NCBI RefSeq assembly: GCF_003755185.1
Contig: NZ_RKIC01000013.1
Location: 62,001 to 126,000 of the forward strand
Direction: 5' to 3'
Length of the DNA: 64,000 nucleotides
From: Frigoribacterium sp. PhB24
GTDB lineage: Bacteria > Actinomycetota > Actinomycetes > Actinomycetales > Microbacteriaceae
Positions 1-61,574 of the stretch are shown here, in pieces; within the stretch, counting starts at the first letter, position 1, and each line of letters begins with the position of its first letter. Made by a program: the position numbers and the translations under genes. The notes under the pieces were generated by a model, which ran no database searches, was not told the DNA's origin, and worked only from the letters and a program-made list of their open reading frames with translations.

Positions 1-902
1 TCATCTGGCCGACAGCCCTGAGCGTCGCCTTCGTCGGTCTGATGGAGACCCTGCTGACCGCCAAGCTCGTCGACGACCTCACTGAGACCCCGTCGCACAA
101 GGGCAGGGAGTCCTGGGCGCTCGGCGTCGCGAACATCGCGGCCGGCTTCTACGGCGGCATCGCCGGCTGCGCCATGATCGGGCAGACGGTGGTCAACGTG
201 AAGATCGGACGGGCCCGCACGCGGGTGTCGACGATCGCCGCCGGGCTCTTCCTGCTGTTGCTGGTCACCGGGCTGAGCGCGGTGATGTCGGCGATCCCGA
301 TGGTGGCGCTGGCGGCGGTCATGATGATCGTCGCGATCACGACCGTCGACTGGCACTCGCTCAAGCCGTCGACCCTGCGGCGCATGCCGGTGCCCGAGAC
401 ACTCGTCATGGTGGTCACGGTGGCCGTGGTGGTGGCGACGAACAACCTCGCCCTCGGCGTCGCGGTCGGTGTGCTGCTCGCGATGGTGCTCTTCGCCCGA
501 CGGGTGGCGCACGTCATCACGGTCGAACGGCACGTGACGCCCGGCACGAGCGCCGGCGACGAGGCCTGCGCGGGCCCCGGCGCCGACTCCGGCGCATCGG
601 ACGCAGGAGGCGCGGGTGCGGTCGTCGAGGCGGCCACGGCCCCAGAGACGGTGCGGTACGACGTCGTCGGCCCGTTGTTCTTCGGCAGCAGCAACGACCT
701 CGTCGAGCACTTCTCCTACGGTGACGACCCGGCCACGGTCGTCGTCGACCTCTCACGCGCCCAGGTCTGGGACGCGTCGAGCGTCGCGGCCCTCGACTCG
801 GTCGACGAGAAGTTCCGGGCACACGGCGTGACGGCGACGTTCGTCGGGCTGGACGACCGCAGCGAGGCGTTCCACGGACGCCTCACCGGTCGCCTCGGGT
901 AG
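1..902 (+). CDS. SulP-family anion transporter with STAS domain (5' end outside window)
   Basis: The reading frame is open from the first bases, so the start lies upstream of the window. The visible part holds the last membrane helices of a SulP (SLC26-like) transporter, with hydrophobic segments at about 40-175 of the visible residues. A low-complexity linker follows, then a C-terminal STAS domain ending in a VDLSRAQVWDASSVAALD-type strand-loop-helix. SulP proteins move sulfate, bicarbonate or similar anions across the cytoplasmic membrane; the substrate cannot be read from this fragment. The linker between membrane part and STAS domain contains one copy of the AGGAGGCGCG motif (605-614), read here as GGA. 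The family call is firm. Confidence 0.85.
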   Translation, partial: IWPTALSVAFVGLMETLLTAKLVDDLTETPSHKGRESWALGVANIAAGFYGGIAGCAMIGQTVVNVKIGRARTRVSTIAAGLFLLLLVTGLSAVMSAIPMVALAAVMMIVAITTVDWHSLKPSTLRRMPVPETLVMVVTVAVVVATNNLALGVAVGVLLAMVLFARRVAHVITVERHVTPGTSAGDEACAGPGADSGASDAGGAGAVVEAATAPETVRYDVVGPLFFGSSNDLVEHFSYGDDPATVVVDLSRAQVWDASSVAALDSVDEKFRAHGVTATFVGLDDRSEAFHGRLTGRLG

Positions 903-942
903 CGGGCCGCTCCGGCGACGCGCCGGGACGCGAGCGCTCGGC

Positions 943-2112
943 TCAGCCGTCGATGCGGACGAAGTGGTGCGCCTGGTTCCAGATGGGACGGACGTCGACG
1001 AAGCCGCCGGGCTTGGGGGCGTCGAGGATCATGCCGTTGCCGGCGTAGATGCCGTCGTGGGCCAGGTTGTCGAAGACGACGAGGTCGCCCGGTACCGCTT
1101 CGGACTCGGGGATCGTGCGACCCTCGGTGTTCTGCGTGGGCACGTAGTGGGTGAGCTTGATGCCGAACTGCGCGTAGACGAAGGTGATCAGCCCCGAGCA
1201 GTCGAACTTCGAGGGGTCCTCGCCGCCGTGCACGTACGGCGTGCCGATGTACTGCAGCGCCACCGCGAGCACCTGGTCGCGGTCGAGCTCGGGGTAGAGC
1301 GGGTTCGCGAGGTAGTCGGCCGTGGTCGGCCCCTCGTAGGTCGTGTTCGCCGCGGCCTTGCGGTTCTGCAGGTTCTGCGTCACGACGTCGACCATCGACG
1401 TGGCGGAGTAGGTGTCGCGAGCGGTCTCGTCGGACTCGTCGGACAGCGAGGCCGTGTCGACCGAGAGGGTCTGCGAGCCGAGCGACGACCGCGCCGACGC
1501 CCCCGCCGCGACGGCCTGGGCCTCGTCGCCCGTGGTCGCGAGCAGGGGCAGCACGCCGCTGGCGGCGAACCCGACGATCGCCGTGACGATGGAGAGCTTC
1601 TTCACGGCGGTGCCGACGCTGCGCGCTGCACCGGCGCGCCCGGCGGCACCGGCATGGGCCTGCGAGGCGGGACGCGCGGCCAGGGTCGAGGCCCGGCGAG
1701 CGCGACGCGAGGGTCGGTCGGCGGCCGGTCGAGCGGCGGCCGAGGAGGCGCGGGCGGCGACCGCAGGACGAGCGGCCTCGGTCGCGGCGGACTCCTCGAG
1801 GCCGAGCAACGGGCTGGTCCGGGCCGGAGCGTCGGAGCGACGCGGCCGGACGCGCGGGGCGACCGCAGCCTCGGCGGCACCGACGAGGGCGGGGCACTCG
1901 ACGAAGGACTGGCGGTGCGAGGTCGGCAGGACGTCCCGGCGGGCACGGCGTTCGCGTCGTTCGAGGGCGAGGCGGGCCGAGCGCTCACCGAGCGGACGAG
2001 GACCGTTCTGGCCTTCTGTCGCCTGACCGGCGGGCTGTTGACCGGAACCGTCGGTGTGACCAGCCGTCGCGCCACCCTGATCCGAAGAGGTCGGGGAGGC
2101 GGGCTTCGTCAC
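943..2112 (-). CDS. NlpC/P60 family peptidoglycan endopeptidase
   Basis: Predicted cell-wall hydrolase that cuts peptide stems of peptidoglycan. The C-terminal ~120 residues form an NlpC/P60 domain: GTPYVHGG, then the nucleophile Cys in FDCSGL (about residue 305), and the His in HDGIYAG (about 352). Upstream is a hydrophobic segment (about residues 185-205) that may anchor or export the protein. The first ~180 residues are Arg/Ala/Pro-rich and probably disordered and cytoplasmic. I chose GTG at 2112 because an AGAGGA ribosome site lies 8 bases before it; an in-frame ATG at 2148 would add 12 residues. The long disordered N-terminus holds an AGGAGGCGCG motif copy (1743). Confidence 0.82.
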   Translation of the reverse strand: MTKPASPTSSDQGGATAGHTDGSGQQPAGQATEGQNGPRPLGERSARLALERRERRARRDVLPTSHRQSFVECPALVGAAEAAVAPRVRPRRSDAPARTSPLLGLEESAATEAARPAVAARASSAAARPAADRPSRRARRASTLAARPASQAHAGAAGRAGAARSVGTAVKKLSIVTAIVGFAASGVLPLLATTGDEAQAVAAGASARSSLGSQTLSVDTASLSDESDETARDTYSATSMVDVVTQNLQNRKAAANTTYEGPTTADYLANPLYPELDRDQVLAVALQYIGTPYVHGGEDPSKFDCSGLITFVYAQFGIKLTHYVPTQNTEGRTIPESEAVPGDLVVFDNLAHDGIYAGNGMILDAPKPGGFVDVRPIWNQAHHFVRIDG

Positions 2113-2217
2113 GCGTGCGGTCCTCTCGTCTGGGGGTGGTGCGAACACTCGACCCTAGCGCGCATCATCCTCGAGGTGTAGTTGTCGTCGGAAAAAGGTC
2201 ACGAATCGATCACGAAA

Positions 2218-3429: not shown

Positions 3430-3470
3430 GCGTACCGGCACCCTGCGACCTCCCGAGGAGGCGCGGGCCG

Positions 3471-4105: not shown

Positions 4106-4160
4106 AGGAGGCGCGGCGCGGGCCGGGCGGGCGGCGAGGGCAGGAGGCGCGGCGCGGGCC
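4106..4160 (+). repeat. Tandem pair of AGGAGGCGCG motif units
   Basis: Two near-identical 22-base units, starting with GCAGGAGGCGCGG and running to GCGGGCCG, begin at about 4104 and 4140. The 320-base gap 3963-4282 otherwise contains only the palindrome at 4041 and the ribosome site of the lipoprotein gene. The short spacer between the units is G-rich. Confidence 0.6.
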
Positions 4161-4282: not shown

Positions 4283-5431
4283 ATGCCCGTCCGTCCTGCC
4301 GCACCCGCACGTCCCACCGGCACCAGCCCGGCAGCCGCCCGCGCCGGGGACCGTGAGTCGTCCCGCCGCCGTCACCCGCGCCTCCTCGGGGTCGCCGGCG
4401 GCCTCGCCGGTCTCGCCCTGCTCGCGGGCTGTGCCAGCGCTCCCGCCGAGGGTGGCGGCAGCACCGCCGCGGGGTCCGAGAACTGCGCCCGCATGGTGAC
4501 GAACTCCGGCGGACTCGACGACCGCTCGTTCAACCAGTCGAGCTGGGCCGGGCTGCAGAAGGCCGAGAAGGACGACGGCATCCAGGCCCGCGTGCTCGTG
4601 TCGACGACCGAGAACGACCTGGCCCCGAACGTCGCCCAGGCCGTCGACTCGGGCTGCGGCTTCGTGCTGACGGTCGGCTACGAGCTCGCCCCCGCCACCG
4701 AGGAGCAGGCGAAAGCCCACCCCGACATCGACTTCGCCATCGTCGACGAGACCGTCGAGGCCCCGAACGTCAAGCCGATCCTGTTCGACACGGCCCAGGC
4801 CTCGTACCTGGCCGGCTACCTCGCGGCGGGCGTCAGCACGACGGGCAAGGTCGCGACCTTCGGCGGCGGGAACCAGCCCCCGGTCACCCTGTTCATGGAC
4901 GGCTTCGCCGACGGCGTCGACGCCTACAACGCCGCGCACGGCACGAGCGTGCAGCTGCTCGGTTGGTCGAAGGAGGCGCAGGACGGCTCGTTCACCGGCG
5001 ACTTCGAGGACGTCAACAAGGGCAAGCAGCTGGCGCAGGCGCTGATCGACCAGGGTGCGGACGTCATCATGCCGGTCGCCGGTCAGGTCGGCGAGGGGGC
5101 GGCGTCGGCCGCGCTCGCCACGGGCGGCGTCGACGTGATCTGGGTCGACAACGACGGCTACGACACGCTCCCCGCCGAGTACCGACCGATCATGTTGACC
5201 AGCGTCATCAAGGACACCGAGAAGGCCGTCCAGCAGATCGCCGTGTCGTCGACGGACGACTCGTTCAGCAACGACCCCTACGTCGGCACGCTCGACAACG
5301 GCGGGGTCGACCTCGCGCCGTTCCACGACCTCGCGTCGTCGGTCAGCCCCGAGCTGTCCGCCGAGCTCGACGCCCTGCGCGGTCAGATCGTGAGCGGAGC
5401 CGTGACGGTCACCTCGCCCAGCCAGCCGTAG
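4283..5431 (+). CDS. BMP-family substrate-binding lipoprotein (PnrA/Med type)
   Basis: Predicted extracytoplasmic binding protein of the basic-membrane-protein family, which feeds ABC importers, often for nucleosides. A long Arg-rich leader and hydrophobic stretch end in the lipobox LLAGC with Cys at residue 50. The mature part starts with the family signature MVTNSGGLDDRSFNQSSWAG and later carries FGGG, FMDGFADGV and a VIMPVAGQVGEGA segment. The ATG at 4283 has GGAGG nine bases upstream; the frame is open further upstream but without coding character. No permease or ATPase genes are adjacent, so its transporter must be encoded elsewhere. A hairpin at 5473-5528 follows. Confidence 0.88.
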   Translation: MPVRPAAPARPTGTSPAAARAGDRESSRRRHPRLLGVAGGLAGLALLAGCASAPAEGGGSTAAGSENCARMVTNSGGLDDRSFNQSSWAGLQKAEKDDGIQARVLVSTTENDLAPNVAQAVDSGCGFVLTVGYELAPATEEQAKAHPDIDFAIVDETVEAPNVKPILFDTAQASYLAGYLAAGVSTTGKVATFGGGNQPPVTLFMDGFADGVDAYNAAHGTSVQLLGWSKEAQDGSFTGDFEDVNKGKQLAQALIDQGADVIMPVAGQVGEGAASAALATGGVDVIWVDNDGYDTLPAEYRPIMLTSVIKDTEKAVQQIAVSSTDDSFSNDPYVGTLDNGGVDLAPFHDLASSVSPELSAELDALRGQIVSGAVTVTSPSQP

Positions 5432-5528: not shown

Positions 5529-5552
5529 CTGGCCAGGACGAGGAGGCGCGGG

Positions 5553-7676
5553 TCAGGAAGCGACGGAGGTCGCAGCCCGGGCGGCAGCGGCGCGCACCGC
5601 GGCGACGACGCGTTCCGTCGTCATGCCGCGCTCGCGCAACGCATCGGCCGCGGGGGCCGACAGGCCGAACTCGTCGATGCCGACGATCACGCCGCCGGGG
5701 CCGGCGACGCCCTCCCAGCCGAAGCTGGCGGCGGCCTCGACGACGACCCGGGCCGACACGGCGCGGGGCAGCACCTGCTCGCGGTACTCGACGGGCTCGG
5801 CGTCGAACCACTCGCGGCACGGCATCGACACGACGCGCACGGCGAGATCGTCGATCTGCGCGACGGCCTCGAGCACGAGGGCGACCTCGCTGCCCGTGGC
5901 GACGACGACCACGTCGGGCGTGCCGCCCTCAGCCGGGTCACCAGCCGCGCCACCGGCCGGGCCACCGGCCGAGCCACCGGCCGAGGCCGACGCGTCCTGC
6001 ACGACGTAGGCCCCGCGACGCACACCCGCGCGCACCACGTCGGCCGGCGTCGGCGCGACCGGCAGGGGCTGGCGGGCCAGCACGAGACCGGCCGGGCCGT
6101 CCTTCTCGAGGATCGCGAGCCAGGCCGCGGCCGTCTCGGCGCCGTCGGCGGGGCGCACCACCGAGAACCCGGGCATCGCGCGGAGGCTCGCCAGATGCTC
6201 GATCGGCTGGTGGGTGGGCCCGTCGGCGCCGAGGGCCACCGAGTCGTGCGACCAGAGGTAGGTGACCGGCAGCTGCATGAGCGCCGCCAGGCGGATCGCC
6301 GGGCGCTGGTAGTCGCTGAACACCAGGAACGTGCCGGCGAAGAACCGTGAGCCCTCGATCAGCGCGATGCCGTTCATGGCCGAGGCCATCGCCCCCTCGC
6401 GCACGCCCCAGTGGACGTTGCGACCGGCGCGGCCGGTGCCGGGACCCTCGTCGGGGAGGAACGACGCGCCTCCTGCGATCGCCGTCCGGTTGGGCTCGGC
6501 GAGGTCGGCCGAGCCGCCCCACAGCTCGGGCAGCGCCTCGGCGAACGCCTGGATGACCTGTCCGGACGCGTCGCGGGTGGCGAGCGTGTCGCCGGGCGAG
6601 AAGACGGGGAGGCGCGACCCGAGGTCCGCGGGCAGGGTGCGCGACCGCGAGCGCCGCAGTTCGGCGGCGGCCACGGGGTGGGCGAGCTCCCAGGCGTCGG
6701 CGGCGACCTGCCAGGCCTCGCGGGCGGCCCGACCGCGCTCGAGGGCCGTCCGGGTGTGAGCGAGCACGGTGTCGTCCACCGTGAAGGGGTCGGAGTCGAC
6801 GCCGAGCTCGACGCGGGTGGCCGCGACCTCGTCGGCCCCGAGCGGGGCGCCGTGCGACGCCGAGGTGTTGCGGGCGTTCGGGGCGGGCCAGGCGATCTGC
6901 GACTTGAGCACGACGAGGTGCGGACGGTCACCGCGGCGGTCGGCGGCCGAGAGCACCTCGTCGAGGGCGTCGACGTCGACGTCGCCGTCCGAGGCGAGGC
7001 CGACGTGGTCCACCCGCCAGCCCTGCGCGGCGAAGCGGGCACCGACGTTCTCGCTCGAGGTGAGGCTCGTGTCGCCCTCGATCTGGATGTCGTTGTCGTC
7101 GTAGATCACCGTGAGGCCGCCGAGGCGGTGGCGTCCGGCGAGCGCGCCGGCCTCGTACGAGAGCCCCTCCTGCAGGTCGCCGTCCGAGGCGAGCACGAAC
7201 ACGCGTCGGTCGAAGACGGACTCGCCGGGTGCGGCGTCGGGGTCGTTGACGGCTCGCTCGTGCGCGATGGCCATCGCCATGCCGACGGCCGTGGCGAAAC
7301 CCTGGCCGAGCGGCCCGGTCGTGGTCTCGACACCCGGGGTGTGGCCGAGTTCGGGGTGGCCGGGCGTGCGCGAGCCGAACGAGCGGAACGCCTTGAGGTC
7401 GTCCAGCGACACGTCGTAGCCGGTGAGGAAGAGCTGCGTGTAGAGCAGGACGCTCGCGTGCCCGCAGCTGAGCACGAAACGGTCGCGGCCGGGCCAGTCG
7501 GGTGCCTGCGGGTCGTGCCGCAGGTGCTTCTGGAAGAGGAGGTGCGCGACGGGAGCCAGCGCGGCCGCCGTCCCCGGGTGACCCGAGCCCGCACGCTCGA
7601 CGGCGTCCAGGGCGAGCAGGCGGGCGGTGGTGACGGCGGCGTGGTCGAGAGGGGTCTGGTCGAAAGCGTGGGTCAC
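5553..7676 (-). CDS. tkt: Transketolase
   Basis: Thiamine-diphosphate enzyme of the non-oxidative pentose phosphate pathway, moving two-carbon units between sugar phosphates. Conserved signatures include GSGHPG with the His near residue 33, GPLGQG (about 121-126), the ThDP motif SDGDLQEG...YDDNDIQI (165-199) and a SHDSVALGADGPTHQP segment in the pyrimidine domain. At 707 residues it is slightly longer than usual, because a Gly/Ala/Pro-rich insert (about residues 555-580) is encoded by 12-base tandem repeats at 5938-5990. It is divergent from a GntR regulator and an ascorbate-type PTS, so it may be a dedicated pentose-catabolism copy. Two palindromes in the shared promoter region probably control it. 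Confidence 0.93.
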   Translation of the reverse strand: MTHAFDQTPLDHAAVTTARLLALDAVERAGSGHPGTAAALAPVAHLLFQKHLRHDPQAPDWPGRDRFVLSCGHASVLLYTQLFLTGYDVSLDDLKAFRSFGSRTPGHPELGHTPGVETTTGPLGQGFATAVGMAMAIAHERAVNDPDAAPGESVFDRRVFVLASDGDLQEGLSYEAGALAGRHRLGGLTVIYDDNDIQIEGDTSLTSSENVGARFAAQGWRVDHVGLASDGDVDVDALDEVLSAADRRGDRPHLVVLKSQIAWPAPNARNTSASHGAPLGADEVAATRVELGVDSDPFTVDDTVLAHTRTALERGRAAREAWQVAADAWELAHPVAAAELRRSRSRTLPADLGSRLPVFSPGDTLATRDASGQVIQAFAEALPELWGGSADLAEPNRTAIAGGASFLPDEGPGTGRAGRNVHWGVREGAMASAMNGIALIEGSRFFAGTFLVFSDYQRPAIRLAALMQLPVTYLWSHDSVALGADGPTHQPIEHLASLRAMPGFSVVRPADGAETAAAWLAILEKDGPAGLVLARQPLPVAPTPADVVRAGVRRGAYVVQDASASAGGSAGGPAGGAAGDPAEGGTPDVVVVATGSEVALVLEAVAQIDDLAVRVVSMPCREWFDAEPVEYREQVLPRAVSARVVVEAAASFGWEGVAGPGGVIVGIDEFGLSAPAADALRERGMTTERVVAAVRAAAARAATSVAS

Positions 7677-8629: not shown

Positions 8630-8738
8630 CCGACCGGGCGCTCCCCGGCTGCCGGGCCGCGCCTCCTCAATCCCCCACCGACATCCACCACCGACGCCCG
8701 TCCCGACGCCGACGTCACCGACCCCACCAGGAACTCCA

Positions 8739-11060: not shown

Positions 11061-12371
11061 TCAGTGCGTCGCGCCTCCGGACGCCTCGAGGTCGAGCAGC
11101 CACTCGTGGGCTGCGGCCACGAGTGCGTCCACGCCGTTCGTCAGGGTGGGCTCGACGACCGGCGCATAGAGCGGGGAGTGGTTCGAGGGCAGCTGTCCGA
11201 CGACGCGGACGAGGTCGGCAGATGACCGGGCCTCGGCGAACGCAGCGGGGTCGGCACCCCCGAGCAACCAGAAGCTGCACGGGGCGCCCGCCGCCGCGGC
11301 GAGGATGCCCACGTCTTCGCTGCCCGTCACGGGCCCGGGAGCGATGACCTGCTGCTCGCCGAAGCGACGCACCAAGGAGGCGCGGGTGCGGTCCGCCGCG
11401 AACGGGTCGTTCACGACGGCCGGAAAGCTCTCGTAGTGCTCGATCGTCGGCGGCTGCGGTGCGCCGGCCGCCGAGGCCTCGCCCACGGCGATGCGCGTGA
11501 TGGCGGCGAGTGCCCGTTCGCGGACGTGCTCGTCGAACGACCGCATGCTGATCAGGATCTCGGCGGTGTCGGGGATCACGTTGTTCTTGGTGCCCGCGTG
11601 GATCGAGCCGACGGTGACGACCAGCCGGTCGGCCGCGGACGTCTCGCGAGACACGACGGACTGCAACCGCAGGACGGTCGCGGCCGCCAGCACGATGGGG
11701 TCGACGGTCGTCTCGGGCCGCGAGCCGTGCCCCCCGCGACCGTGGAAGGTGATGCGGATGCCGTCCTGCGCGGCGAACGCCGGGCCGGACTGCAGGGCGA
11801 CGAAACCGGCCGGGAACGGCGCGACGTGCTGGCCGAGGACGACGGCGGGGGCGGGGATGCGGTCGAAGAGCCCGTCGGCGACGAGCGCGCGAGCGCCGGC
11901 ACCGAGTTCTTCGGCGGGTTGGAAGAGCACCTCGAGGGTGCCCGACCAGGCGCCGTCGGCCGCCAGTCGGCGGGCGGCACCGACGAGGCAGGTCACGTGG
12001 ACGTCGTGGCCGCAGGCGTGCATCACCGGCACGTCGCGGCCGTCGGGATCGACACCTCGGGCGGTGCTCGCGTAGTCCAGGCCGGTGGCCTCGGCGACGG
12101 GCAGGCCGTCCATGTCGGCGCGGAGCAGCACGGTCGGGCCGTCCCCGCGACGGAGGACGCCGACCACGCCCGTCCCCCCGATGCCGGTCTGCACCTCGAA
12201 GCCGAGGGCGGTCAGTTCGGCCGCGACGATCGCGGCCGTCGCCTTCTCGTGGAACGACAGCTCGGGGTGTCGGTGCAGGTGTCGGTACAACTCGTCGAGC
12301 GGGGCGCCCACGGCCGGCGGCCGGGCGTCGTCGAGAGGGGGGCGCGGCTGGTCGGTGCCGGTCGAGGTCAT
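11061..12371 (-). CDS. M20 family amidohydrolase (hippurate/IAA-amino acid hydrolase type)
   Basis: A metal-dependent amidase or carboxypeptidase of the M20D group, which removes acyl groups from amino acids. Metal-binding and catalytic signatures are HRHPELSFHE, HACGHDVH, the catalytic FQPAEELGAG, GQHVAP and the C-terminal LPSNHSPLYAP. At 436 residues it has the family's usual length. No signal peptide is seen, so it is cytoplasmic. It is a single gene between the PTS terminator and an FAD monooxygenase, and its natural substrate is not evident. Confidence 0.87.
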   Translation of the reverse strand: MTSTGTDQPRPPLDDARPPAVGAPLDELYRHLHRHPELSFHEKATAAIVAAELTALGFEVQTGIGGTGVVGVLRRGDGPTVLLRADMDGLPVAEATGLDYASTARGVDPDGRDVPVMHACGHDVHVTCLVGAARRLAADGAWSGTLEVLFQPAEELGAGARALVADGLFDRIPAPAVVLGQHVAPFPAGFVALQSGPAFAAQDGIRITFHGRGGHGSRPETTVDPIVLAAATVLRLQSVVSRETSAADRLVVTVGSIHAGTKNNVIPDTAEILISMRSFDEHVRERALAAITRIAVGEASAAGAPQPPTIEHYESFPAVVNDPFAADRTRASLVRRFGEQQVIAPGPVTGSEDVGILAAAAGAPCSFWLLGGADPAAFAEARSSADLVRVVGQLPSNHSPLYAPVVEPTLTNGVDALVAAAHEWLLDLEASGGATH

Positions 12372-40384: not shown

Positions 40385-40387
40385 GAC

Positions 40388-41346: not shown

Positions 41347-41394
41347 GAGTTGCTCCTTGTGGTGATGAAGAGTGAGTGCAGGTCTTGGTGGTGG

Positions 41395-42905: not shown

Positions 42906-42906
42906 C

Positions 42907-44361: not shown

Positions 44362-44363
44362 GC

Positions 44364-45888: not shown

Positions 45889-45893
45889 CCAGT

Positions 45894-45912
45894 CTTATCA
45901 GTAGATAAGGCA
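45894..45912. promoter_or_regulatory. Inverted repeat between lysR and permease
   Basis: CTTATC and GATAAG with a 4-base AGTA spacer follow the lysR stop. It could be a short hairpin or a LysR-type site for the permease promoter. Confidence 0.35.
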
Positions 45913-46005
45913 TCCGGACTTCCGAGCAACGCGCTTTTCTCGGTTCACTCTCTTCACGGCGTTGACCATCCGGTCTGCGAACCAGCAATGAAGCGAGGAG
46001 CAGCC

Positions 46006-47532: not shown

Positions 47533-47549
47533 CCTCTTCGGGGCCGCTG

Positions 47550-47695
47550 TCGGTTTGGTCGACTCGTGTTGTGTGGGTTTTTCGGGCCGCGTGAGCGACG
47601 CGTGAGTCGATCGTCTCGAACTCGATCGGAGTGAGCCGGCCGGCACCCGAGAGGTATCGCATGACGTTCGTGCCGTCTCGGCTTGCTCCGAACAC
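47550..47695 (-). pseudogene. 3' remnant of an IS3-type transposase gene
   Basis: On the - strand the frame reads RYLSGAGRLTPIEFETIDSR, which resembles the C-terminus of IS3-family OrfB transposases (usually ...RRHSALGxLTPIEFE...). The upstream catalytic core is missing. It directly borders the end of the permease gene and the catabolic island. I am moderately sure; a search of this peptide against IS3 transposases would decide. Confidence 0.45.
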
Positions 47696-47716
47696 CTCAC
47701 CCCGAGGAGGCGCGGT

Positions 47717-49605: not shown

Positions 49606-50994
49606 TCAGCTGGGCATGTCCACGAAGCGGGAGAACATGCCGTGGAAGGCGACCGTGATGGTGTCGGTGGGACCGTTGCGGTGCTTGGCGACGATGAAGT
49701 CGGCCTCGCCCTGGCGGGGGTTGTCTTTCTCGTAGGCGGACTCGCGGTGCAGCAGGATGACCATGTCGGCGTCCTGCTCGAGCGAACCGGACTCGCGCAA
49801 GTCGCTGATCGCGGGCTTCTTGTCGGCACGCTGCTCGGGGCCACGGTTCAGCTGCGACAGCGCGATCACCGGCACCTGCAGCTCTTTCGCCATCAGCTTC
49901 AGCGCACGCGAGAACTCCGACACCTCTTGCTGACGGCTCTCGACCCGCTTGCCCGACGTCATCAGCTGCAGGTAGTCGATCACCACGAGCTTCAAGTTGT
50001 GCTGCTGCTTCAGCCGGCGGCACTTCGCCCGGATCTCGACCAACGTCATGTTGGGGGAGTCGTCGATGAACAACGGCGCATCGTTGATCCGCCCCCGCAC
50101 CTGCGCGATGTTCGTCCAGTCACGCGCGTCGACCGTTCCTTTACGCATGTTCTGCAGCGGCACACTCGACTCCGCCGACATCAGACGCATCGCGATCTCG
50201 CTGCGCCCCATCTCGAGCGAGAAGAACACCGACGCCTGCCCGTGCTTGATCGACGCCGCCCGCGCCAGGTCGAGCGCCAACGTCGACTTACCGAGCGCCG
50301 GTCGCGCCGCCACGATGATCAGCTGGCCCGGGTGGAACCCGTTCGTCAGGGCGTCGAGCTGCGCGAACCCCGTCGGCACACCCGTCATCTGACCGTCACG
50401 ACCCTTGGCCGCCTCGATCTCGTCGATCGCGACCGTCACCGCCTCGTTCAGCGGCACGTAGTCCTCGGTCTGCACCCCACCGGCCACGTTGTAGACCTCG
50501 GCCTGCGCGTTGTTGACCAGGTCGACGACCTCGCCCTCGCTCGCGTAACCCATCTGCACGATGCGGGTGCCCGCCTCGACCAGACGGCGCAGCACCGCCT
50601 TCTCGGCGACGATGGACGCGTAGTACCCCGCGTTCGCCGCCGTGGGCACGACGCCGGTGAGGGTGTGGAGGTACTCCGCGCCTCCTGCCCTCGACAGGTC
50701 GGCGGACTTCATGAGCTCGTCGCTGACCGTGATGACGTCGGTGGGCTCGCCGTGCGAGTACAGCCCCAGGATCGCGTCGTAGATGACCTCGTGCTTGGGC
50801 ACGTAGAAGTCCATGCCGCGGACCGTCTCGATGACGTCGGCCACGGCGTCCTTGCTCAGCAGCATGCCGCCCAGCGCGCTCTGCTCGGCCAGGAGGTCGT
50901 GCGGCGGGACGCGGTCCATGTTGACGGGGCCACCACGGTCGCGATCGCGGTTGTTCGACGCATCGGGAGCGAGACCGAGATGGGCGATCGACAT
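49606..50994 (-). CDS. dnaB: Replicative DNA helicase
   Basis: A 462-residue hexameric helicase that unwinds DNA at the replication fork. The N-terminal primase-interaction domain starts with VPPHDLLAEQSALGGML. The RecA-like core has Walker A ARPALGKST (about 230-238), Walker B LVVIDYLQLM, and RGPEQRADKKPAISDLRESG near the C-terminus. I chose ATG at 50994, with GGAGG seven bases upstream. No intein is present. In relatives dnaB usually follows rplI directly; here a ribose operon lies between them. Confidence 0.95.
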   Translation of the reverse strand: MSIAHLGLAPDASNNRDRDRGGPVNMDRVPPHDLLAEQSALGGMLLSKDAVADVIETVRGMDFYVPKHEVIYDAILGLYSHGEPTDVITVSDELMKSADLSRAGGAEYLHTLTGVVPTAANAGYYASIVAEKAVLRRLVEAGTRIVQMGYASEGEVVDLVNNAQAEVYNVAGGVQTEDYVPLNEAVTVAIDEIEAAKGRDGQMTGVPTGFAQLDALTNGFHPGQLIIVAARPALGKSTLALDLARAASIKHGQASVFFSLEMGRSEIAMRLMSAESSVPLQNMRKGTVDARDWTNIAQVRGRINDAPLFIDDSPNMTLVEIRAKCRRLKQQHNLKLVVIDYLQLMTSGKRVESRQQEVSEFSRALKLMAKELQVPVIALSQLNRGPEQRADKKPAISDLRESGSLEQDADMVILLHRESAYEKDNPRQGEADFIVAKHRNGPTDTITVAFHGMFSRFVDMPS

Positions 50995-51350: not shown

Positions 51351-51497
51351 GGGATTTGACTTCGGGGCACGAGAACCGATACCGACGCAGCCAGTGTTCA
51401 GCTTCTGGTAACCCCCCGAAGGCGGGCCCTGGGAAGAGCCTGGTCAGGGCGGTATCGGGGTCCGGCACCGCGCCTCCTGTCGGTCTCGGACGACGAA

Positions 51498-51571: not shown

Positions 51572-51955
51572 TCAGAAGGGGACGCCGCAGCGCAGCACGA
51601 CGTTGGCGTACGGGGTCGCCTCACCCGTCCGGACGAGGAGGCGCGCCCCACCCGACAGCCGCTTGAGCTCGTCGTGCGACACGTAGGCCACCTCGTCGAA
51701 GCGGGACGTGATCCAGCCGCCGGCCTCGCGGCCCTGGCTCTCGTCGGCGGCCGTGCAGGCCTCGAACACCACGTCGGCCGTCAGTGCGTCCAGCACGTCG
51801 GCGAAGGCGGGCAGGCCGTGGACGACGGCGAGGTCGACCACCGGGACTCCAGGGGGGAGGGGGAGTCCGCAGTCGGCGACGACGACGAGGTCTCCGTGGC
51901 CGAGTCCGCTGACGGCGTGGTTCAGCTGGGCGTTGAGGAGGCCTCCGCGCTTCAC
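51572..51955 (-). CDS. rbsD: D-ribose pyranase
   Basis: A 127-residue enzyme that interconverts ribopyranose and ribofuranose for ribokinase. RbsD features include LNHAVSGLGHGDLVVVADCGLPLP with the catalytic His near residue 20, AVVHGLPAFADVLDAL, and the C-terminal GEATPYANVVLRCGVPF. It overlaps rbsK by four bases. A motif copy in the middle (51636) codes ARLLV in place. Confidence 0.92.
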   Translation of the reverse strand: MKRGGLLNAQLNHAVSGLGHGDLVVVADCGLPLPPGVPVVDLAVVHGLPAFADVLDALTADVVFEACTAADESQGREAGGWITSRFDEVAYVSHDELKRLSGGARLLVRTGEATPYANVVLRCGVPF

Positions 51956-52950
51956 GAGGTCACCCCCGCAGAAGCCGCCGGCAGCTCGTCGTCGAGCGTC
52001 GGGTACGACGCCTGCGTCCCCACACCCGTCACCGAGTACGCCCCGACGCGCACGGCGTCCCGAGCGGCCTCGAGCAGTGACGAACCCGCGGCCAGCCCGG
52101 CGGCGAGGGCGCCGACGAAGGCGTCACCTGCCCCGGACGAGTCGACGGCCGCGACGCGAGGCGAGGCGACGAGCACGGTGCCCGACGCGTCCGACACGAT
52201 CGCCCCGGCGGCACCGCGGGTCATGACGACCGAGGTGACTCCCTGGGCGCGCAGGGAGGCGACGACCGACTCGTCGTCGACCCGCGCCTCCTCGTCCGAT
52301 CCGTCCGAAGCCGCGCCCGCAGCCGAGCCAGCGCCCCACGCGGCCAGCAGCAGCCGCCCCTCGTGCTCGTTGACGACCAGCGGATCCGCGGCCTTCACCA
52401 CGTCCGCCGGCACGTCGATCACCGGGGCGAGGTTGAACACCACGCGCCCTCCGGTGTGCTGCACGGCGGCGGCGATGCCGTCCACGGGGATCTCTCCCTG
52501 CAGGACGACCACCGCCGCGTCGGCCAGCACATCCGCATGCCCGTCGACGAACGACGCCGAGACCGCACCGTTGGCCCCGGGGACGACGACGATCGTGTTC
52601 TCGCTGTCGCCTCCGACGCTGACGATCGCCAGGCCGGTGGGCCCGGGCACGGTGTCGACGCCGCTGACGTCGACACCGCTCGAGCGGAGGTAGGGCAGGG
52701 CGTCGTCGGCACGTCCGTCGTCGCCGACCGCACCGATCATCACGGTGCGGGCGCCGCGACGAGCCGCCGCGACGGCCTGGTTCGCGCCCTTGCCGCCGGG
52801 GGAGAGGGTCATCGACGAGCCGATCAGCGTCTCGCCGGGCAGGGGTAGGCGATCGACGGTCACGACCTGGTCGACGTTGATCGACCCGACCACGACGACC
52901 GTGCCGGTCATGCCGACCCCGCCGGCGCCCTGCGATTCAGAACCACTCAT
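51952..52950 (-). CDS. rbsK: Ribokinase
   Basis: A 332-residue PfkB-family kinase phosphorylating ribose at O5. N-terminal GSINVDQVVTVDRLPLPGET and GGKGANQAVAAAR bind sugar; C-terminal DSSGAGDAFVGALAAGL carries the catalytic Asp. An inserted Gly/Ala/Asp-rich stretch of about 20 residues ending in EEARVDDES contains a motif copy (52283, inverse orientation on +). It overlaps rbsB and rbsD by four bases each. Confidence 0.92.
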   Translation of the reverse strand: MSGSESQGAGGVGMTGTVVVVGSINVDQVVTVDRLPLPGETLIGSSMTLSPGGKGANQAVAAARRGARTVMIGAVGDDGRADDALPYLRSSGVDVSGVDTVPGPTGLAIVSVGGDSENTIVVVPGANGAVSASFVDGHADVLADAAVVVLQGEIPVDGIAAAVQHTGGRVVFNLAPVIDVPADVVKAADPLVVNEHEGRLLLAAWGAGSAAGAASDGSDEEARVDDESVVASLRAQGVTSVVMTRGAAGAIVSDASGTVLVASPRVAAVDSSGAGDAFVGALAAGLAAGSSLLEAARDAVRVGAYSVTGVGTQASYPTLDDELPAASAGVTS

Positions 52951-53941: not shown

Positions 53942-54070
53942 AGGAGGCGCGGGTCGGCCGGCTGAGGCCCGTCGCCTGGGCTGCGCTGCAGCCCCAGGGC
54001 CGGGCCCCGCAGCTGCCGCCGCTCCGCTGAGACGCGACGCCGCCCGTCCGGGCCGCACCGCGCCTCCTCG
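53942..54070. repeat. Inverted motif pair flanking an rbsC-rbsB spacer
   Basis: AGGAGGCGCG at 53942 and CGCGCCTCCT at 54059 face each other over about 105 bases of GC-rich, self-complementary sequence. The large hairpin that could form in the rbsC-rbsB mRNA might adjust rbsB expression. Confidence 0.5.
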
Positions 54071-55095: not shown

Positions 55096-56613
55096 TCAGT
55101 TCGTCTCGACGACGTCGCGTGCCGCGAGCGTCATCAGCGTGTCTTGGGTGGCGTCGGCCGCGGCGACCTCGCCCGCGACGACTCCGTCGCGCATCACGAG
55201 GATGCGGTCGCTCATGCCCATCACCTCGGGCAGTTCGCTGCTGACCATCACGACCGCGCCTCCTGCGTCGGTGATGCGGTTCACCAGCTCGTAGATCTCG
55301 ACCTTCGCGCCGACGTCGACGCCGCGGGTCGGCTCGTCGAGCAGCAGCACCGACGAACCGGCGATGATCCAGCGGCCGAACACGGCCTTCTGCTGGTTGC
55401 CGCCCGACAGCGAGCCGATCTCTTGATCGATGTCGCGCATGCGGATCCGCAGGGTCGAGGCGACCTCGTCGGCCTTGGCGCGCTGACCGGCGAAGTCGAC
55501 CAGGCCGGCCTTGGCGCTGCTGGCGAGCGTCGCGTAGCCGAGGTTGTCGTTGACGGAGGCGCCCAGCACGAGCCCCTGCGCCTTGCGGTCCTCGGGAACG
55601 TGGCCGACACCCGCGGCGATGGCCCCGGCGACGTCGCCCTTCTTCAGGCGCTTTCCGCGCACGGTCACGGAGCCCGAGTCGTACTTGTCGACCCCGGCGA
55701 TCGCACGGACGACCTCGGTGCGACCGGCGCCGACGAGGCCGGCGATGCCGAGCACCTCGCCCGCCCGCACCTCGAACGACACGTCGCGGAAGACTGACCC
55801 CGTCAGGCCCCGCACCTCGAGCACGACGGGGGAGTCGCTCTCGCTGCCGGGGGTGCGCGGGTACTGGTGCTCGATGTCGCGTCCGACCATCAGGCGGACG
55901 AGCTCGTCCTCGCCGGTCGACGCGGGCACCTCGGCGACGAACGCGCCGTCACGCAGTACGGCCACGGTGTCGCCGATCTCGGCGATCTCGTCGAGGTGGT
56001 GGCTGATGAACAGCATGCCGACGCCGCGGGCGCGCAGCTGCTCGACGACGCGGAAGAGGATCTCGGTCTCGTGCCGGGTCAGCGCCGCGGTCGGCTCGTC
56101 GAGGATCAGGATGCGCGCGTCGATGCTCAGCGCCTTCGCGATCTCGACCAGCTGCTGGCGGGCGATGCCGAGCTCGCCGACTTTCTGGTCGACGTCGACG
56201 TCGAGACCGATCAGGTCGAGGGCCGCACGGGCGCGCTTCTTGAGCTCTTTGCGGTCGACGAGGCCGAACCGCGTCGGGAACCGCCCCATCATCACGTTCT
56301 CGGCGACACTGAGCGAGGCGACGAGGTTCAGCTCTTGGTGGATCGTCGCGATACCGAGCTTCTCGGCGGCGTGCGTGTTCGGCAGGTGGACGGCCTCGCC
56401 GTCGACCAACACACGGCCGGCGTCGGGCTGGTACACGCCCGACATCATCTTGATCAGGGTGGACTTGCCGGCGCCGTTCTCGCCGAGCAGCACCTGCACG
56501 CGGCCGGGCCGGACGTGCACGGTGACGTCGTCGATGACCCGCACGGGGCCGAACGACTTGCTGACGTTCTCGAGCGTGAGCAGGGGACGATCGTCGTCGA
56601 TCGAATGGGGCAT
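55096..56613 (-). CDS. rbsA: Ribose ABC transporter ATP-binding protein
   Basis: A 505-residue double ATPase. The first domain has Walker A GENGAGKSTLIKM (about 36-48) and LDEPTAALT. The second has a degenerate Walker A (GLVGAGRTEVVRA) and LSGGNQQKAVFGRW, with LDEPTRGVDVG. It energises ribose uptake. A 3-base gap separates it from the LacI gene upstream. A motif copy is inside it (55255, inverse), coding GGA. Confidence 0.92.
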   Translation of the reverse strand: MPHSIDDDRPLLTLENVSKSFGPVRVIDDVTVHVRPGRVQVLLGENGAGKSTLIKMMSGVYQPDAGRVLVDGEAVHLPNTHAAEKLGIATIHQELNLVASLSVAENVMMGRFPTRFGLVDRKELKKRARAALDLIGLDVDVDQKVGELGIARQQLVEIAKALSIDARILILDEPTAALTRHETEILFRVVEQLRARGVGMLFISHHLDEIAEIGDTVAVLRDGAFVAEVPASTGEDELVRLMVGRDIEHQYPRTPGSESDSPVVLEVRGLTGSVFRDVSFEVRAGEVLGIAGLVGAGRTEVVRAIAGVDKYDSGSVTVRGKRLKKGDVAGAIAAGVGHVPEDRKAQGLVLGASVNDNLGYATLASSAKAGLVDFAGQRAKADEVASTLRIRMRDIDQEIGSLSGGNQQKAVFGRWIIAGSSVLLLDEPTRGVDVGAKVEIYELVNRITDAGGAVVMVSSELPEVMGMSDRILVMRDGVVAGEVAAADATQDTLMTLAARDVVETN

Positions 56614-56616: not shown

Positions 56617-57714
56617 TCAGTTCCTGCCGAGGGGTCGGGGTCGGGTGGGGTGCGTCGGGTGCGTCGGGTGCGTCGGGTCTGTCGGGGACGAGGAGGCGCG
56701 GGTCGCGTCGCCCCCGGAGGCGCGGCTCGTCGACTCGCGCACGATCAGTTCGCTGGGCAGCACGACCGATTCGGGGGTGAACCCGTCGATGACCTCGTGC
56801 AGCAGCTGCACGGCGATGCGGCCCATCTCCTCGACGCTGTGCGAGATGACGGTGAGCGCCGGGTCGAGCAGCGAGAACCACTCGATGTCGTCGAAGGCGA
56901 TGACCGAGACGTCGGCGCCCATGCGCTTGCCCAGCCGGTTGAGCATGGCGATGGCTCCGACGGCCATGAGGCTGTCGGCCGCGAGCAGCGCGGTCGGCGG
57001 CTCGTCGAGCTCGAACAGGGCGTGCACGGCGGCCGACCCGCTGGCGGACTGGAAGTCGCCGACGTAGACCAGGTCGGGGTCGGTGCTGAGGCCCAGCTCG
57101 GCGGCCGCGGCCGTCCACGCCTCGAGCCGCTCGCGCCCGGTGGACACGCTCTGCGGCCCGGCGACGTACCCGACGCGCTCGTGGCCGAGGTCGACCAGGT
57201 GCTGCACGGCGGCCCGGATGCCGGGGCGGCTGTCGGTCGTCACGCTCGGGACGTCGACGCCCGGGATCGTGCGGTCGACGAACACGGTCGGCACCTCGCG
57301 CGCGAGCAGCGAGTCGATGCTGGCCGAGTCGGTCCCTTGCGGGGCGACGATGACTCCGTCGACACGGCGTGAGATGAGGGTGTCGAGGTAGCGGTCCTGC
57401 TGCTCACGGTTCTCGTTGGCGTTGCCGAGCAAGGTGACGTAGCCGAGTTCGAGCAGCGACTGCTCGATGGTGTGGGCGAGGTCGGCGAAGAACGGGTTGC
57501 GGACGTCGGAGACGAGCAGGCCGACGGTGTCGGAGCGGGTCGAGCGCAGCGCCCGCGCCTGGGCGTTCGGACGGAAGTCGAGGTCGCGAGCGGCTCGTTC
57601 GACCTGGGCCCGGGCCTCGGGCGACGTGGCGGGGTTGCCCGACAGCACCCGTGATGCCGTCGCGGCCGAGACGCCGGCGCGCTGCGCCACGTCCCTGATC
57701 GTCACGGTGTTCAT
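56617..57714 (-). CDS. LacI-family repressor of the ribose operon (RbsR-like)
   Basis: A 365-residue regulator, with HTH TIRDVAQRAGVSAATASRVLSG (4-25) and a ribose-binding-like effector domain. It is the first gene of the operon, just after two perfect LacI operators, so it controls its own operon. The C-terminal ~30 residues (SRASGGDATRASSS, THPTHPTHP) come from two motif copies and a 9-base tandem repeat (GGTGCGTCG) at 56646-56680 and are probably an addition. Confidence 0.9.
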   Translation of the reverse strand: MNTVTIRDVAQRAGVSAATASRVLSGNPATSPEARAQVERAARDLDFRPNAQARALRSTRSDTVGLLVSDVRNPFFADLAHTIEQSLLELGYVTLLGNANENREQQDRYLDTLISRRVDGVIVAPQGTDSASIDSLLAREVPTVFVDRTIPGVDVPSVTTDSRPGIRAAVQHLVDLGHERVGYVAGPQSVSTGRERLEAWTAAAAELGLSTDPDLVYVGDFQSASGSAAVHALFELDEPPTALLAADSLMAVGAIAMLNRLGKRMGADVSVIAFDDIEWFSLLDPALTVISHSVEEMGRIAVQLLHEVIDGFTPESVVLPSELIVRESTSRASGGDATRASSSPTDPTHPTHPTHPTRPRPLGRN

Positions 57715-57832: not shown

Positions 57833-57873
57833 GAGGAGGCGCGGTCCCCGCCCCAGCCTTCCCGCGCCTCCTC
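57833..57873. terminator. Motif-pair hairpin
   Basis: GAGGAGGCGCGG (57833-57844) pairs with CCGCGCCTCCTC (57862-57873), giving a 12-bp stem with a 17-base loop. Both arms are motif copies. It lies between the ribose operon promoter and the end of the rplI operon. Confidence 0.55.
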
Positions 57874-58849: not shown

Positions 58850-59425
58850 TTAGAAGGGCGTCTCGTCGTTGTAGGTGCCGTTGCCACCGGGGGTGTTCCA
58901 CACGTCGCCACCAGAGGTGTTGCCACCCTGCTGGCCGCCGGCGGGCTGACCCCACGGCTCTTGCGCCTGACCGCCGCCGACCTGGGCCGGCTGGCCACCA
59001 CGGTTGCCGCCGCCGTTACCGCCCCCGAAGGAGCCACCACCGGCAGCACCGTCGCGGGACGAGGAGGCGCGGGTCACCTGAGCGGTCGCGTAACGCAGCG
59101 AAGGGCCGATCTCGTCGATCTCGAGCTCCATGCTGGTGCGCTTCTCGCCCTCTTTGGTCTCGTACGAGCGCTGCTTGAGCCGGCCCTGAGCGATGACCCG
59201 GCTGCCCTTGGTGAGGCTGCTGGCCACGTGCTCGCCGAACTCGCGCCACACGCTGGCACGGAGGAAGAGCGCCTCGCCGTCCTTCCACTCGTTCGACGCG
59301 CGGTCGAACGTGCGGGGGGTCGACGCGATGGTGAAGTTCGCGACCGCGAGCCCGTTCTGCGTGTACCGCAGCTCGGGGTCACTGGTGAGGTTTCCCACCA
59401 CTGTGATGACGGTCTCGCCTGCCAT
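58850..59425 (-). CDS. ssb: Single-stranded DNA-binding protein
   Basis: A 191-residue SSB. The OB fold covers about 1-113 ([41 protein letters not shown]). A Gly/Gln-rich linker follows and the tail ends DETPF, a variant of the protein-binding acidic tip DDDIPF. A motif copy at 59062 codes TRASSS at the junction of OB fold and linker. I took the start at 59425; the open frame to 59554 is out of context. Confidence 0.95.
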
Positions 59426-59429
59426 CGGA

Positions 59430-59938: not shown

Positions 59939-59999
59939 CGCGCCTCCTGAATCAATGCCGCCGCAGCGGCCACCGGCCGTGCAGAGCCGAGGAGGCGCG
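59939..59999. terminator. Motif-pair hairpin between cca and rpsF
   Basis: CGCGCCTCCT (59939-59948) and AGGAGGCGCG (59990-59999) are exact complements 41 bases apart, just after the cca stop at 60021 and before the rpsF promoter. It may terminate cca transcription. Confidence 0.5.
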
Positions 60000-60020
60000 G
60001 GACGACACCCGCAGGACGGG

Positions 60021-61460
60021 TTACGCGCCGGCACCCTCGCGTGCGTTCCACCAGGCGAGCAGCCGCTCGGTGGCGACCTCGGCCCCGAGCGGCCCCTCGT
60101 CGGTGCGCAACTCGAGCAGGAAACGGTAGGCCTCGCCGACCTCGCGGCTCGGGCCGATGGCGAGCACGCGTTGGATCTCGTCGCCGTTCAGGTCGGGCCG
60201 CAGCGAGTCGAGCTCTTCCCGTTCGCGCAGCTCGGCGATGCGGGCCTCGAGGTCGTCGTAGGCGAAGCCGAGCCGGTCGGCCTTGCGCCGGTTGCGCGTC
60301 GTGACGTCGGCGCGGGTCAGCATGTGCAACCGCTCGAGCTGGTCACCGGCGTCGCGGACGTACCGGCGGACGGCCGAATCGGTCCAGGCGCCCTCGGTGT
60401 AGCCGAAGAAGCGGAGGTGCAGCTCGATCAGGCGGTACACGGCGGCGATGGTGTCGTTGTCGAAGCGCAGCGCCTTCAGCCGCTTCTTGGCGAGCTTGGC
60501 GCCGACGACGTCGTGGTGGTGGAAGGTGACGACCCCGCCCGGCTCGAGACGACGCGTGGCGGGCTTGCCGCAGTCGTGCAGCAGGGCCGCGAGGCGCAGG
60601 GTGAGGTCGGGGGCGTCGCCCGGGTGGCGCTCGCGCTCGTAGCCGATGGCCTGGTCGAGCACGGTGAGGCTGTGCTCGTAGACGTCCTTGTGGTGGTGGT
60701 GCTCGTCGACCTCGAGGCGCATGGCGGCGAGCTCGGGCATGACGTGGTCGGCCAGACCGGTGTCGACCAGCAGCCGGACACCGTCTCGGGGGGTTTCGGT
60801 CTTGAGCAACTTCGTCAGCTCGTCGGCGACCCGCTCGACCGAGACGATCGACAGGGTCTCGGCCCGCGCCGTCATCGCGTCGCGCACCTCGTCGGACACG
60901 GTGAAGCCGAGCTGGGCCGTGAACCGTGCGGCCCGCATCATGCGGAGGGGGTCGTCACGGAACGAGTCGACCGCGGTGCCCGGGGTGGCGAGTCGCGCCC
61001 GCAGCAGGTCGTCGACACCGCCGGACGGGTCGACGAGCACGCGCTCGGGCAGGCGCAGCGCCATCGAGTTGACGGTGAAGTCCCGACGGACGAGGTCGCC
61101 CTCGAGGGTGTCGCCGAACTCGACGACGGGCTTGCGGGTCTCGCCGTCGTAGACGTCGCTGCGGTACGTGGTGATCTCGACGGTCTCGCCGTCGACGCGG
61201 GCGGCGATGGTGCCGAACGCGCGGCCGACGTCCCAGTGCGCCTCGGCCAGCGGCACGACGATCGCCAGGATCTCGTCGGGGTCGGCGTCGGTCGTGAAGT
61301 CGAGGTCGTTGACCGGGCGACCGATGAAGGCGTCACGCACGGGGCCGCCGACGAGGGCCAACTCGTGACCTGCCGCGGCGAACGCGGCGGCGAGCTTCTC
61401 GATGCGGGGGGTGGCGGCCAGATCGTCCAGTCGCTGCAGGGCCCGTGCGACGCTGTCCAT
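60021..61460 (-). CDS. cca: CCA tRNA nucleotidyltransferase
   Basis: A 479-residue enzyme that adds or repairs the 3' CCA end of tRNAs. The class II catalytic head reads LVGGPVRDAFIGRPVNDLDFTTDAD (about 36-60) with the DxD metal site, followed by RRDFTVNSMAL and an HD domain (LLHDCGKPATRR, about 298-309). I chose ATG at 61460; the frame is open to 61586 without coding sense. It is divergent from DUF6049-murJ, as in mycobacteria, but without the intervening Nudix gene. Confidence 0.93.
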   Translation of the reverse strand: MDSVARALQRLDDLAATPRIEKLAAAFAAAGHELALVGGPVRDAFIGRPVNDLDFTTDADPDEILAIVVPLAEAHWDVGRAFGTIAARVDGETVEITTYRSDVYDGETRKPVVEFGDTLEGDLVRRDFTVNSMALRLPERVLVDPSGGVDDLLRARLATPGTAVDSFRDDPLRMMRAARFTAQLGFTVSDEVRDAMTARAETLSIVSVERVADELTKLLKTETPRDGVRLLVDTGLADHVMPELAAMRLEVDEHHHHKDVYEHSLTVLDQAIGYERERHPGDAPDLTLRLAALLHDCGKPATRRLEPGGVVTFHHHDVVGAKLAKKRLKALRFDNDTIAAVYRLIELHLRFFGYTEGAWTDSAVRRYVRDAGDQLERLHMLTRADVTTRNRRKADRLGFAYDDLEARIAELREREELDSLRPDLNGDEIQRVLAIGPSREVGEAYRFLLELRTDEGPLGAEVATERLLAWWNAREGAGA

Positions 61461-61574
61461 GACGAAACAGCTTGCCACAGCCGAGGAGGCGCGGGCTGAG
61501 TCCCCGACGGCGCCTCGCGACCCCGTCCGCCCACCTCGCAGGCGCTTCGCCGCTGCTTCTTGGTCGGCGTTGCC

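Follow-up and report, generated by a model that had tools for sequence, protein, structure and literature searches.

The question raised by the stretch of DNA analysed here, 64,000 nucleotides of Frigoribacterium sp. PhB24 (assembly GCF_003755185.1, contig NZ_RKIC01000013.1, positions 62,001 to 126,000; the whole stretch is referred to as the window), is why one 10-base word recurs through its genes and gaps in dozens of exact copies. The word is AGGAGGCGCG (reverse complement CGCGCCTCCT), which has an 11-mer form, AGGAGGCGCGG, and an eight-base core, GGAGGCGC. The genomic traits described below suggest that AGGAGGCGCG(G) is probably a DNA uptake sequence (DUS)-like word kept by transformation bias.

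Abundance and genus range of the word

An exact scan of the window found 27 copies of AGGAGGCGCG on the + strand and 14 on the - strand, while 0.4-0.8 copies are expected under Markov models of orders 1-4 (0.59 at order 3) at a GC content of 70.9%. The first-pass annotation of this DNA had counted 27 and 13 copies, and had put the chance expectation below one copy in 64 kb at about 70% GC; its + count, all the coordinates it cited and its expectation agree with the scan, and one - copy has to be added to an excess that is itself confirmed. Markov orders 5 to 8 (3.5 to 40 copies expected in the window) were uninformative, because the orders above 4 absorb the motif itself. By z-score, the top over-represented 10-mers of the window were AGGAGGCGCG and GGAGGCGCGG. 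In the whole source genome (G000; 17 contigs, 3,457,365 bp) the word occurs 680 + 662 = 1342 times, or about once per 2.6 kb, whereas the same pattern read backwards, which served as the control for genome counts, occurs 5 + 10 = 15 times; the genome-wide count, which the annotation had named as a possible refutation if it came out near the Markov expectation, thus lies far above it. The enrichment over the order-3 model is 41-fold for AGGAGGCGCG and 113-fold for AGGAGGCGCGG, the latter being present 260 times, with 2.3 expected, in a set of 864 kb made up of the window together with 400 kb each from one contig of G000 (C1) and from the congeneric genome G015. An even spacing of the copies was considered and rejected, since the coefficient of variation of the distances, once pairs were merged, is 0.95 on C1 and 1.01 in the window, near random and with no spacing rule. 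In 10-kb bins, GC-richer DNA holds more copies in C1, G015 and G004; in G007 the trend is not significant.

The word is abundant across the genus, with 513-1570 copies per genome in all 16 Frigoribacterium genomes examined, whereas the 44 genomes of other genera among the 60 scanned contain 0 to 61 copies. Most of these genomes do not clearly exceed their own controls, or fall below them, and those that stand out most are G023 (52 copies, control 14) and G055 (61, control 30). The 11-mer AGGAGGCGCGG, counted in 398 Microbacteriaceae genomes, occurs 383-1106 times in the 10 members of the genus and 0-78 times in the other 388, the highest value outside the genus being 78 in G092 (control 27). 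The comparison with related genomes that the annotation had proposed therefore gives a genus-wide word. The DnaB of the window shares 99% identity with its counterpart in F. faeni NBRC 103066, and Curtobacterium follows at 89-90%. A 21-kb stretch of F. faeni (L001) carries 6 copies, and it has 17,244 of 19,970 31-mers in common with a stretch of G006 (L151), so that G006 is F. faeni or nearly so. No copy was found in three Curtobacterium stretches (L002-L004). In Curtobacterium, to which DnaB points as the nearest named neighbour, 64 kb also showed no replacement word of comparable strength (best z 8.5).

One species of the genus, represented by G007, has a dialect of the word: a second form, GGAGTCGCGG, is present there in 200 + 173 = 373 copies (control 42), while in the other 15 genomes of the genus it occurs 16-39 times, no higher than in their own controls. 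In the DNA sampled from G004 and G007, the word has no specific requirement for A as its first base. As a separate observation, another word, CGGATGCCG / GCGGCATCC with its close forms, shows a several-fold excess in several sister genera (among them Cryobacterium, the Leifsonia group, Agromyces and Microbacterium; not in the Curtobacterium, Rathayibacter and Leucobacter samples) and is weak in Frigoribacterium. In stretches L178-L193 of G016, G017, G021 and G023, CGGATGCCG, GCGGCATCC or related forms are in an excess milder than that of AGGAGGCGCG, and G018 has nothing comparable; in G016, G021 and G023 these forms lie mainly within called genes, the calls of G016 being poor (33% non-coding) and G017, with 99.5% called non-coding, being left out of this count. 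A sister-genus dialect of AGGAGGCGCG is not claimed.

Placement, conservation and shape of the copies

With the codon-usage gene calls made for this analysis, 72 of the 170 copies of C1 and the window fall in the 12.9% of non-coding DNA (p 1.5e-21), and the other 98 are in called genes. The core 8-mer occurs 2.74 times per kb between convergent genes, 1.63 between tandem and 1.47 between divergent ones, and 0.59 times per kb in genes. The word contains AGGAGG, and a translation-linked element had been among the first proposals. However, the coding copies show no significant preference for the strand of their gene (43 on the same strand, 55 on the opposite; p = 0.27), and same-strand intergenic copies beside a gene start lie at a median of 122 bp from it, with 5 of 35 within 40 bp, so that this proposal is not supported. 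The replication-strand bias that had been suggested for checking is absent as well: in G015, a single contig with dnaA at 384 kb, the leading strand has 70 copies and the lagging strand 69 (95% interval 42-59%), as scored in 19 pieces of 20 kb with the terminus assumed to be opposite dnaA and the origin piece (1 +, 3 -) dropped.

The peptides RASS, EEAR/QEAR and GGA are encoded by the copies, as had been noticed, and the annotation had also allowed that amino-acid constraint might account for them. Synonymous-codon shuffling of 408 called genes (400 kb of C1 and the window; 100 shuffles) shows that it does not, with 98 coding copies observed and 11.2 +/- 3.1 (maximum 19) after shuffling; the reversed control gave 3 observed and 6.8 shuffled.

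Conservation was followed over a single 20-kb region, aligned by orthology across 16 genomes, in pairwise, non-independent cells, with GC-matched 10-mers as controls. Cells with a flank identity below 0.6 were set aside (motif, coding/intergenic: 29/55 between clades and 16/37 within; controls: 566, 305, 69 and 65). Within clades, intergenic motif sites were identical in 235 of 272 cells (86%) and control sites in 562 of 1288 (44%), although the motif flanks are less conserved than the control flanks (0.871 vs 0.902), and at coding sites the identity was 192/246 (78%) for the motif and 3327/5670 (59%) for controls. Between clades, the intergenic sites still differ in the same direction (47/205, 23%, vs 200/1928, 10%). 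Where ungapped coding sites within a clade are not identical, three or more differences were found at 17 of 50 motif sites vs 272 of 2284 controls (Fisher test, on non-independent cells).

The presence of the word at orthologous positions, which had also been proposed for examination, varies between species by substitution at the coding sites examined. In dnaB the site reads GCC GGG GGA GCG in G010, G013, G014 and G015, GCC GGA GGC GCG, an intermediate state, in G004 and G007, and GCA GGA GGC GCG in G000, G005, G001 and G008, among others; all three states encode Ala-Gly-Gly-Ala, so the differences are all synonymous. In a gene resembling that of the single-stranded-DNA-binding protein, three of the seven species of the clade have the word, and the other four differ by 4 bases over 15 bp, of which 2 fall inside the 10-mer, the flanks being almost the same apart from this.

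The word is sharply delimited. It is followed by G in 83% of 320 copies, and any other flank position carries at most 0.31 bit, so that of the extended SN...GK context described in the annotation a weak preference remains and a strong one does not; since the flanks carry weak preferences only, there is no long shared repeat body. In the 864-kb set, the bases tolerated in AGGAGGCGCGG are C and G at the first position, T at the tenth and C at the eleventh, and its one-mismatch forms number 254 vs 70 expected (3.6-fold), mainly by edge bases. Single changes at the eight core positions total 47 vs about 52 expected, and the totals of observed and expected core one-mismatch forms are 25/25.4 in G015, 21/22.4 in G000, 16/19.6 in G004 and 27/21.6 in G007; exceptions in excess are the changes of core base 6 from C to G or T (8 and 6 vs 1.8 and 1.7) and of base 7 from G to A (5 vs 1.3). 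Neutral inheritance would leave many one-step mutants, and their scarcity suggests that a damaged copy is soon either restored or lost. The core holds 17.5 bits of information, an upper bound from exact copies only, while 12.3 bits are required for 1342 sites.

Most copies are single, and 47 of 322 exact copies stand in inverted pairs within 45 bp. Among 647 core sites, inverted pairs within this distance carry the motif on the 5' arm in 26 cases and have the opposite arrangement in 11. Five pairs, hand-picked from the list of inverted pairs, gave predicted folds of -29.7 to -51.1 kcal/mol (z -5.1 to -9.6), by which the inverted pairs are modelled as terminator-like hairpins near gene ends.

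The copies of the word in the window, as found by the exact scan, are given below with cruder codon-usage gene calls, by which 25 of the 41 are intergenic; intergenic counts are approximate under these calls as well as under the later ones (72/170, above).

605-614, + strand: motif copy within gene 42-902
1743-1752, + strand: motif copy, intergenic
2873-2882, - strand: motif copy, intergenic
3456-3465, + strand: motif copy between convergent genes
4106-4115, + strand: motif copy, intergenic, direct pair with the copy at 4142
4142-4151, + strand: motif copy, intergenic
4377-4386, - strand: motif copy, coding
5541-5550, + strand: motif copy between convergent genes
6465-6474, - strand: motif copy, coding, gene 5553-7676
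8658-8667, - strand: motif copy, intergenic
11375-11384, + strand: motif copy, coding
18284-18293, + strand: motif copy, intergenic
21168-21177, + strand: motif copy, intergenic
25304-25313, + strand: motif copy, coding
26430-26439, - strand: motif copy, coding
26464-26473, + strand: motif copy, coding, 3' end of gene
27256-27265, + strand: motif copy, coding
28564-28573, - strand: motif copy, coding
31154-31163, + strand: motif copy, intergenic
31948-31957, + strand: motif copy, coding
34018-34049, + strand: motif copy (34018-34027) with reverse core, predicted hairpin between convergent genes, RNA fold -30.0 kcal/mol, z -5.1
36231-36240, + strand: motif copy between convergent genes
38001-38038, + strand: motif copy (38001-38010) with reverse core, inverted pair
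38438-38469: inverted pair of exact motifs (38438, +; 38460, -) directly after a stop codon, predicted fold -32.3 kcal/mol, z -5.2
38958-38967, + strand: motif copy between convergent genes
47705-47714, + strand: motif copy, intergenic
50677-50686, - strand: motif copy in dnaB, 3 synonymous differences from the state in G010, G013, G014 and G015
51469-51478, - strand: motif copy, intergenic
51636-51645, + strand: motif copy, coding
52283-52292, - strand: motif copy, coding
53942-53951, + strand: motif copy, intergenic
54059-54068, - strand: motif copy, intergenic
55255-55264, - strand: motif copy, coding
56691-56700, + strand: motif copy, coding
57834-57872: inverted pair of exact motifs (57834, +; 57863, -), predicted fold -29.7 kcal/mol, z -6.8
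59062-59071, + strand: motif copy in the single-stranded-DNA-binding-protein-like gene (named by eye)
59939-59948, - strand: motif copy, intergenic
59990-59999, + strand: motif copy, intergenic
61484-61493, + strand: motif copy, intergenic

The distribution of the word in acquired DNA was followed in an accessory element of G015, which spans at least 2.13-2.39 Mb of the contig C1 of that genome (stretches L129, L229, L231 and L232). A 4.4-kb probe with its second ribonucleotide reductase has a full match in G015 only, the other 15 genomes matching the reductase part only, at 80-82%, and a family of repeats of about 100 bp, in about 20 dispersed copies, is restricted to the accessory span. No AGGAGGCGCG was found in six 20-kb stretches of G015 (2.20-2.26 and 2.38-2.445 Mb), which represent this one element; the last two lie past the outermost repeat, so that the 120 kb are in and beside the element. 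At the density of the genome 46 copies would be expected in them, whereas their base composition alone predicts 1.5; relative to such a prediction, the core 8-mer reaches 1.3-fold in these stretches vs 7.2-fold in the 864-kb set.

The repeats of G015 encode a recurring peptide resembling FTExDHPRxxxGxFTxKxQSxPExxLS (by eye, in three copies), which seems to be a shared protein tag carried by a large plasmid- or phage-like element. The longest stretch of the window free of the word, 38968-47704 (8.7 kb), coincides with the lowest GC of the window (0.64-0.66 in 4-kb bins), which suggests a recently acquired metabolic island. A prophage-like region of G000 (contig C2, about 455-475 kb; L226), with a portal protein and a second DnaB homologue nearby, has one motif copy in 20 kb.

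A proposed DNA uptake word and its alternatives

Among the three readings offered by the first-pass annotation, a protein-recognition site fits best with a word that is sharp, dialect-bearing, strand-neutral and kept in coding and non-coding DNA. In the mechanism proposed, a surface DNA receptor, for which a part of the Tad/Flp pilus and ComEA are candidates, would bind word-bearing extracellular DNA in competent cells, and the DNA of kin would then enter preferentially via ComEC and recombine. As fragments with the word would be taken up more often, alleles that have it would displace those that lack it, and the word would accumulate where it is tolerated, i.e., in intergenic gaps, at gene ends and in synonymous or loosely constrained codons; inverted pairs might secondarily be usable as terminator hairpins. 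With somewhat more reserve, we lean towards the further claim that Frigoribacterium has an uptake-signal system of its own, which would be the first outside Neisseriaceae and Pasteurellaceae as well as the first of any Gram-positive (monoderm, high-GC) bacterium. This system would have a dialect in one species, and its receptor, possibly Tad/Flp- or ComEA-based, would have arisen independently and work without a type IV pilus. Preferential uptake, the receptor and the natural competence of the genus are what we infer, and the word is proposed as similar to DUS and the uptake signal sequences (USS) and not as a proven member of either class.

The USS of Pasteurellaceae have a 9-bp core in about 10^3 copies and AT-rich flank tracts; AGGAGGCGCG is likewise a short core in about 10^3 copies, and differs in its sequence, its phylum and the lack of such tracts. 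In both, the one-mismatch forms are far less over-represented than the perfect word, as described for USS in the part of PMC1939737 used here. The DUS of Neisseriaceae (GCCGTCTGAA and its dialects, with the receptor ComP, according to an excerpt of PMC6370729) resemble AGGAGGCGCG as a word of about 10 bp in about 10^3 copies on both strands, and share with it the existence of dialects, in AGGAGGCGCG that of one species, and also conservation amid permissive flanks, hairpin pairs and absence from acquired DNA (PMC2397512, PMC3630211, each in part). The pattern found for AGGAGGCGCG matches that of conservation, permissive sites, hairpin pairs and absence from acquired DNA reported for DUS in the excerpted text of Treangen et al. 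(PMC2397512), which supports an uptake word. Unlike DUS, AGGAGGCGCG is an unrelated GC-rich sequence of a monoderm actinobacterium, with no ComP or other receptor known and with a type IV pilus dispensable for having the word; taken together, single mismatches in its core show no excess.

The machinery that such uptake would need was also surveyed. G000 has a comEA-comEC-holA locus of standard layout (comEA and holA named by eye) and, after rpoC, a type IV pilus locus with pilB, pilT, pilC and pilin-like genes (L219, read by eye). The type IV pilus ATPases pilB/pilT are found in 13 of the 16 genomes of the genus and are missing from G002, G003 and G006, the last of these being the F. faeni genome. 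A Tad-type ATPase is present in 16 of 16, with Tad neighbours observed in G000 and G002. In another actinobacterium, Micrococcus luteus, the pili that serve transformation are of the Tad/Flp type, as stated in the consulted portion of PMC4322843.

Several points weigh against an uptake word. The identity of coding sites between clades is 29% for the motif (67/233) and for the controls (2971/10240) alike; over longer times, coding copies are kept no better than other DNA. The core one-mismatch forms are not over-represented in sum here, unlike those of DUS and USS, which the available part of PMC1939737 describes as over-represented, the USS ones far less than the perfect word. ComEC was rejected as a discriminating trait, and the competence machinery is non-discriminating, because 23 of 24 genomes from other genera have ComEC, as do 16 of 16 in Frigoribacterium. 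The type IV pilus is ruled out as the general receptor, since G002, G003 and G006 carry 1204-1492 copies of AGGAGGCGCG without its locus; no receptor was identified, with the pilus loci of G000 and G002 inspected by eye. Uptake words are said, in the portion of PMC12616744 consulted, to be known only in Neisseriaceae and Pasteurellaceae. Among the open-access papers listed under the name of the genus, none was seen to report competence or AGGAGGCGCG, nor was uptake specificity in Gram-positives reported among the papers listed on that subject. Most of the testable genome-level traits agree with a DNA uptake word; the near-absent core mismatch halo and the unremarkable between-clade conservation in genes add no support.

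The main rival, which we regard as possible and decidedly less probable, is a genome-organising or methylation-linked word comparable to HIP1, which an intracellular DNA-binding protein or an orphan methyltransferase of the genus would recognise and selection would keep spread. A word that is genus-limited, sharply defined and kept on both strands of coding and non-coding DNA is consistent with it, and the cognate protein may be among the genus-specific genes. The HIP1 of cyanobacteria (GCGATCGC) is a comparable word, hyper-abundant genome-wide, clade-limited and, in the passages of PMC4390886 used, tied to methyltransferases. However, HIP1 is palindromic, while AGGAGGCGCG is asymmetric, not being its own reverse complement, as well as intergenic-enriched and partly arranged in hairpin pairs; these pairs, the enrichment between convergent genes and the absence from the sampled accessory DNA are directly explained by uptake bias, and the information in the core, at its upper bound, exceeds that needed for 1342 sites.

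It is improbable that the word is a recombination hotspot of the Chi type, read by a helicase-nuclease of the genus. Chi words, the octamers that regulate RecBCD/AddAB, are G-rich, non-palindromic and abundant, that of E. coli being GCTGGTGG, and AGGAGGCGCG is likewise short, G-rich, asymmetric and over-represented. Unlike Chi, it is without replication-strand bias (70 vs 69) and far more strongly enriched, is intergenic-enriched, has a species dialect and is confined to one genus. As a yardstick, Chi is 1.5-fold over the same Markov expectation, vs 41-fold for AGGAGGCGCG, in a small sample of three 50-kb stretches (150 kb) of E. coli K-12, with a leading:lagging ratio of 22:14 under an assumed origin and terminus, a lean that is not significant by itself.

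Still less probable is a spreading mini-repeat or terminator element, in which the hairpin pairs would be the functional unit and the single copies its halves or remnants. The pairs do lie close to gene ends, and intergenic sites are often among indels, so that insertion may have taken place there. However, the paired copies are a minority (47/322), and called genes contain 98 of the 170 exact copies. Where coding sites were compared between species, the differences are substitutions within homologous DNA. Of the spreading small repeat suggested in the annotation, the accumulation of a word therefore stands, and the repeat, with flanks of weak preference and coding sites that differ by substitution, does not.

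A by-product of codon or amino-acid preference or of base composition, for which the GC-rich genome and the recurring peptides RASS, GGA and EAR might speak, is refuted, as shuffling leaves 11 of the 98 coding copies with the reversed control moving from 3 to 6.8, 72 of 170 copies are non-coding, and the word is lacking in other genera of the family.

Meaning for the genus and for uptake specificity

Were AGGAGGCGCG not an uptake signal, a genus-limited word with a 113-fold excess and hardly any decay halo would still need some recognition system. If it is an uptake signal, it would represent a third, independent origin of uptake specificity, beyond the two proteobacterial families and in a Gram-positive without an outer membrane, and such specificity would then depend neither on crossing an outer-membrane secretin nor on pilins of the ComP type. 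It would also provide a replicate for the study of the spread of words by molecular drive, and Frigoribacterium would be naturally transformable, which would be useful for its genetics.

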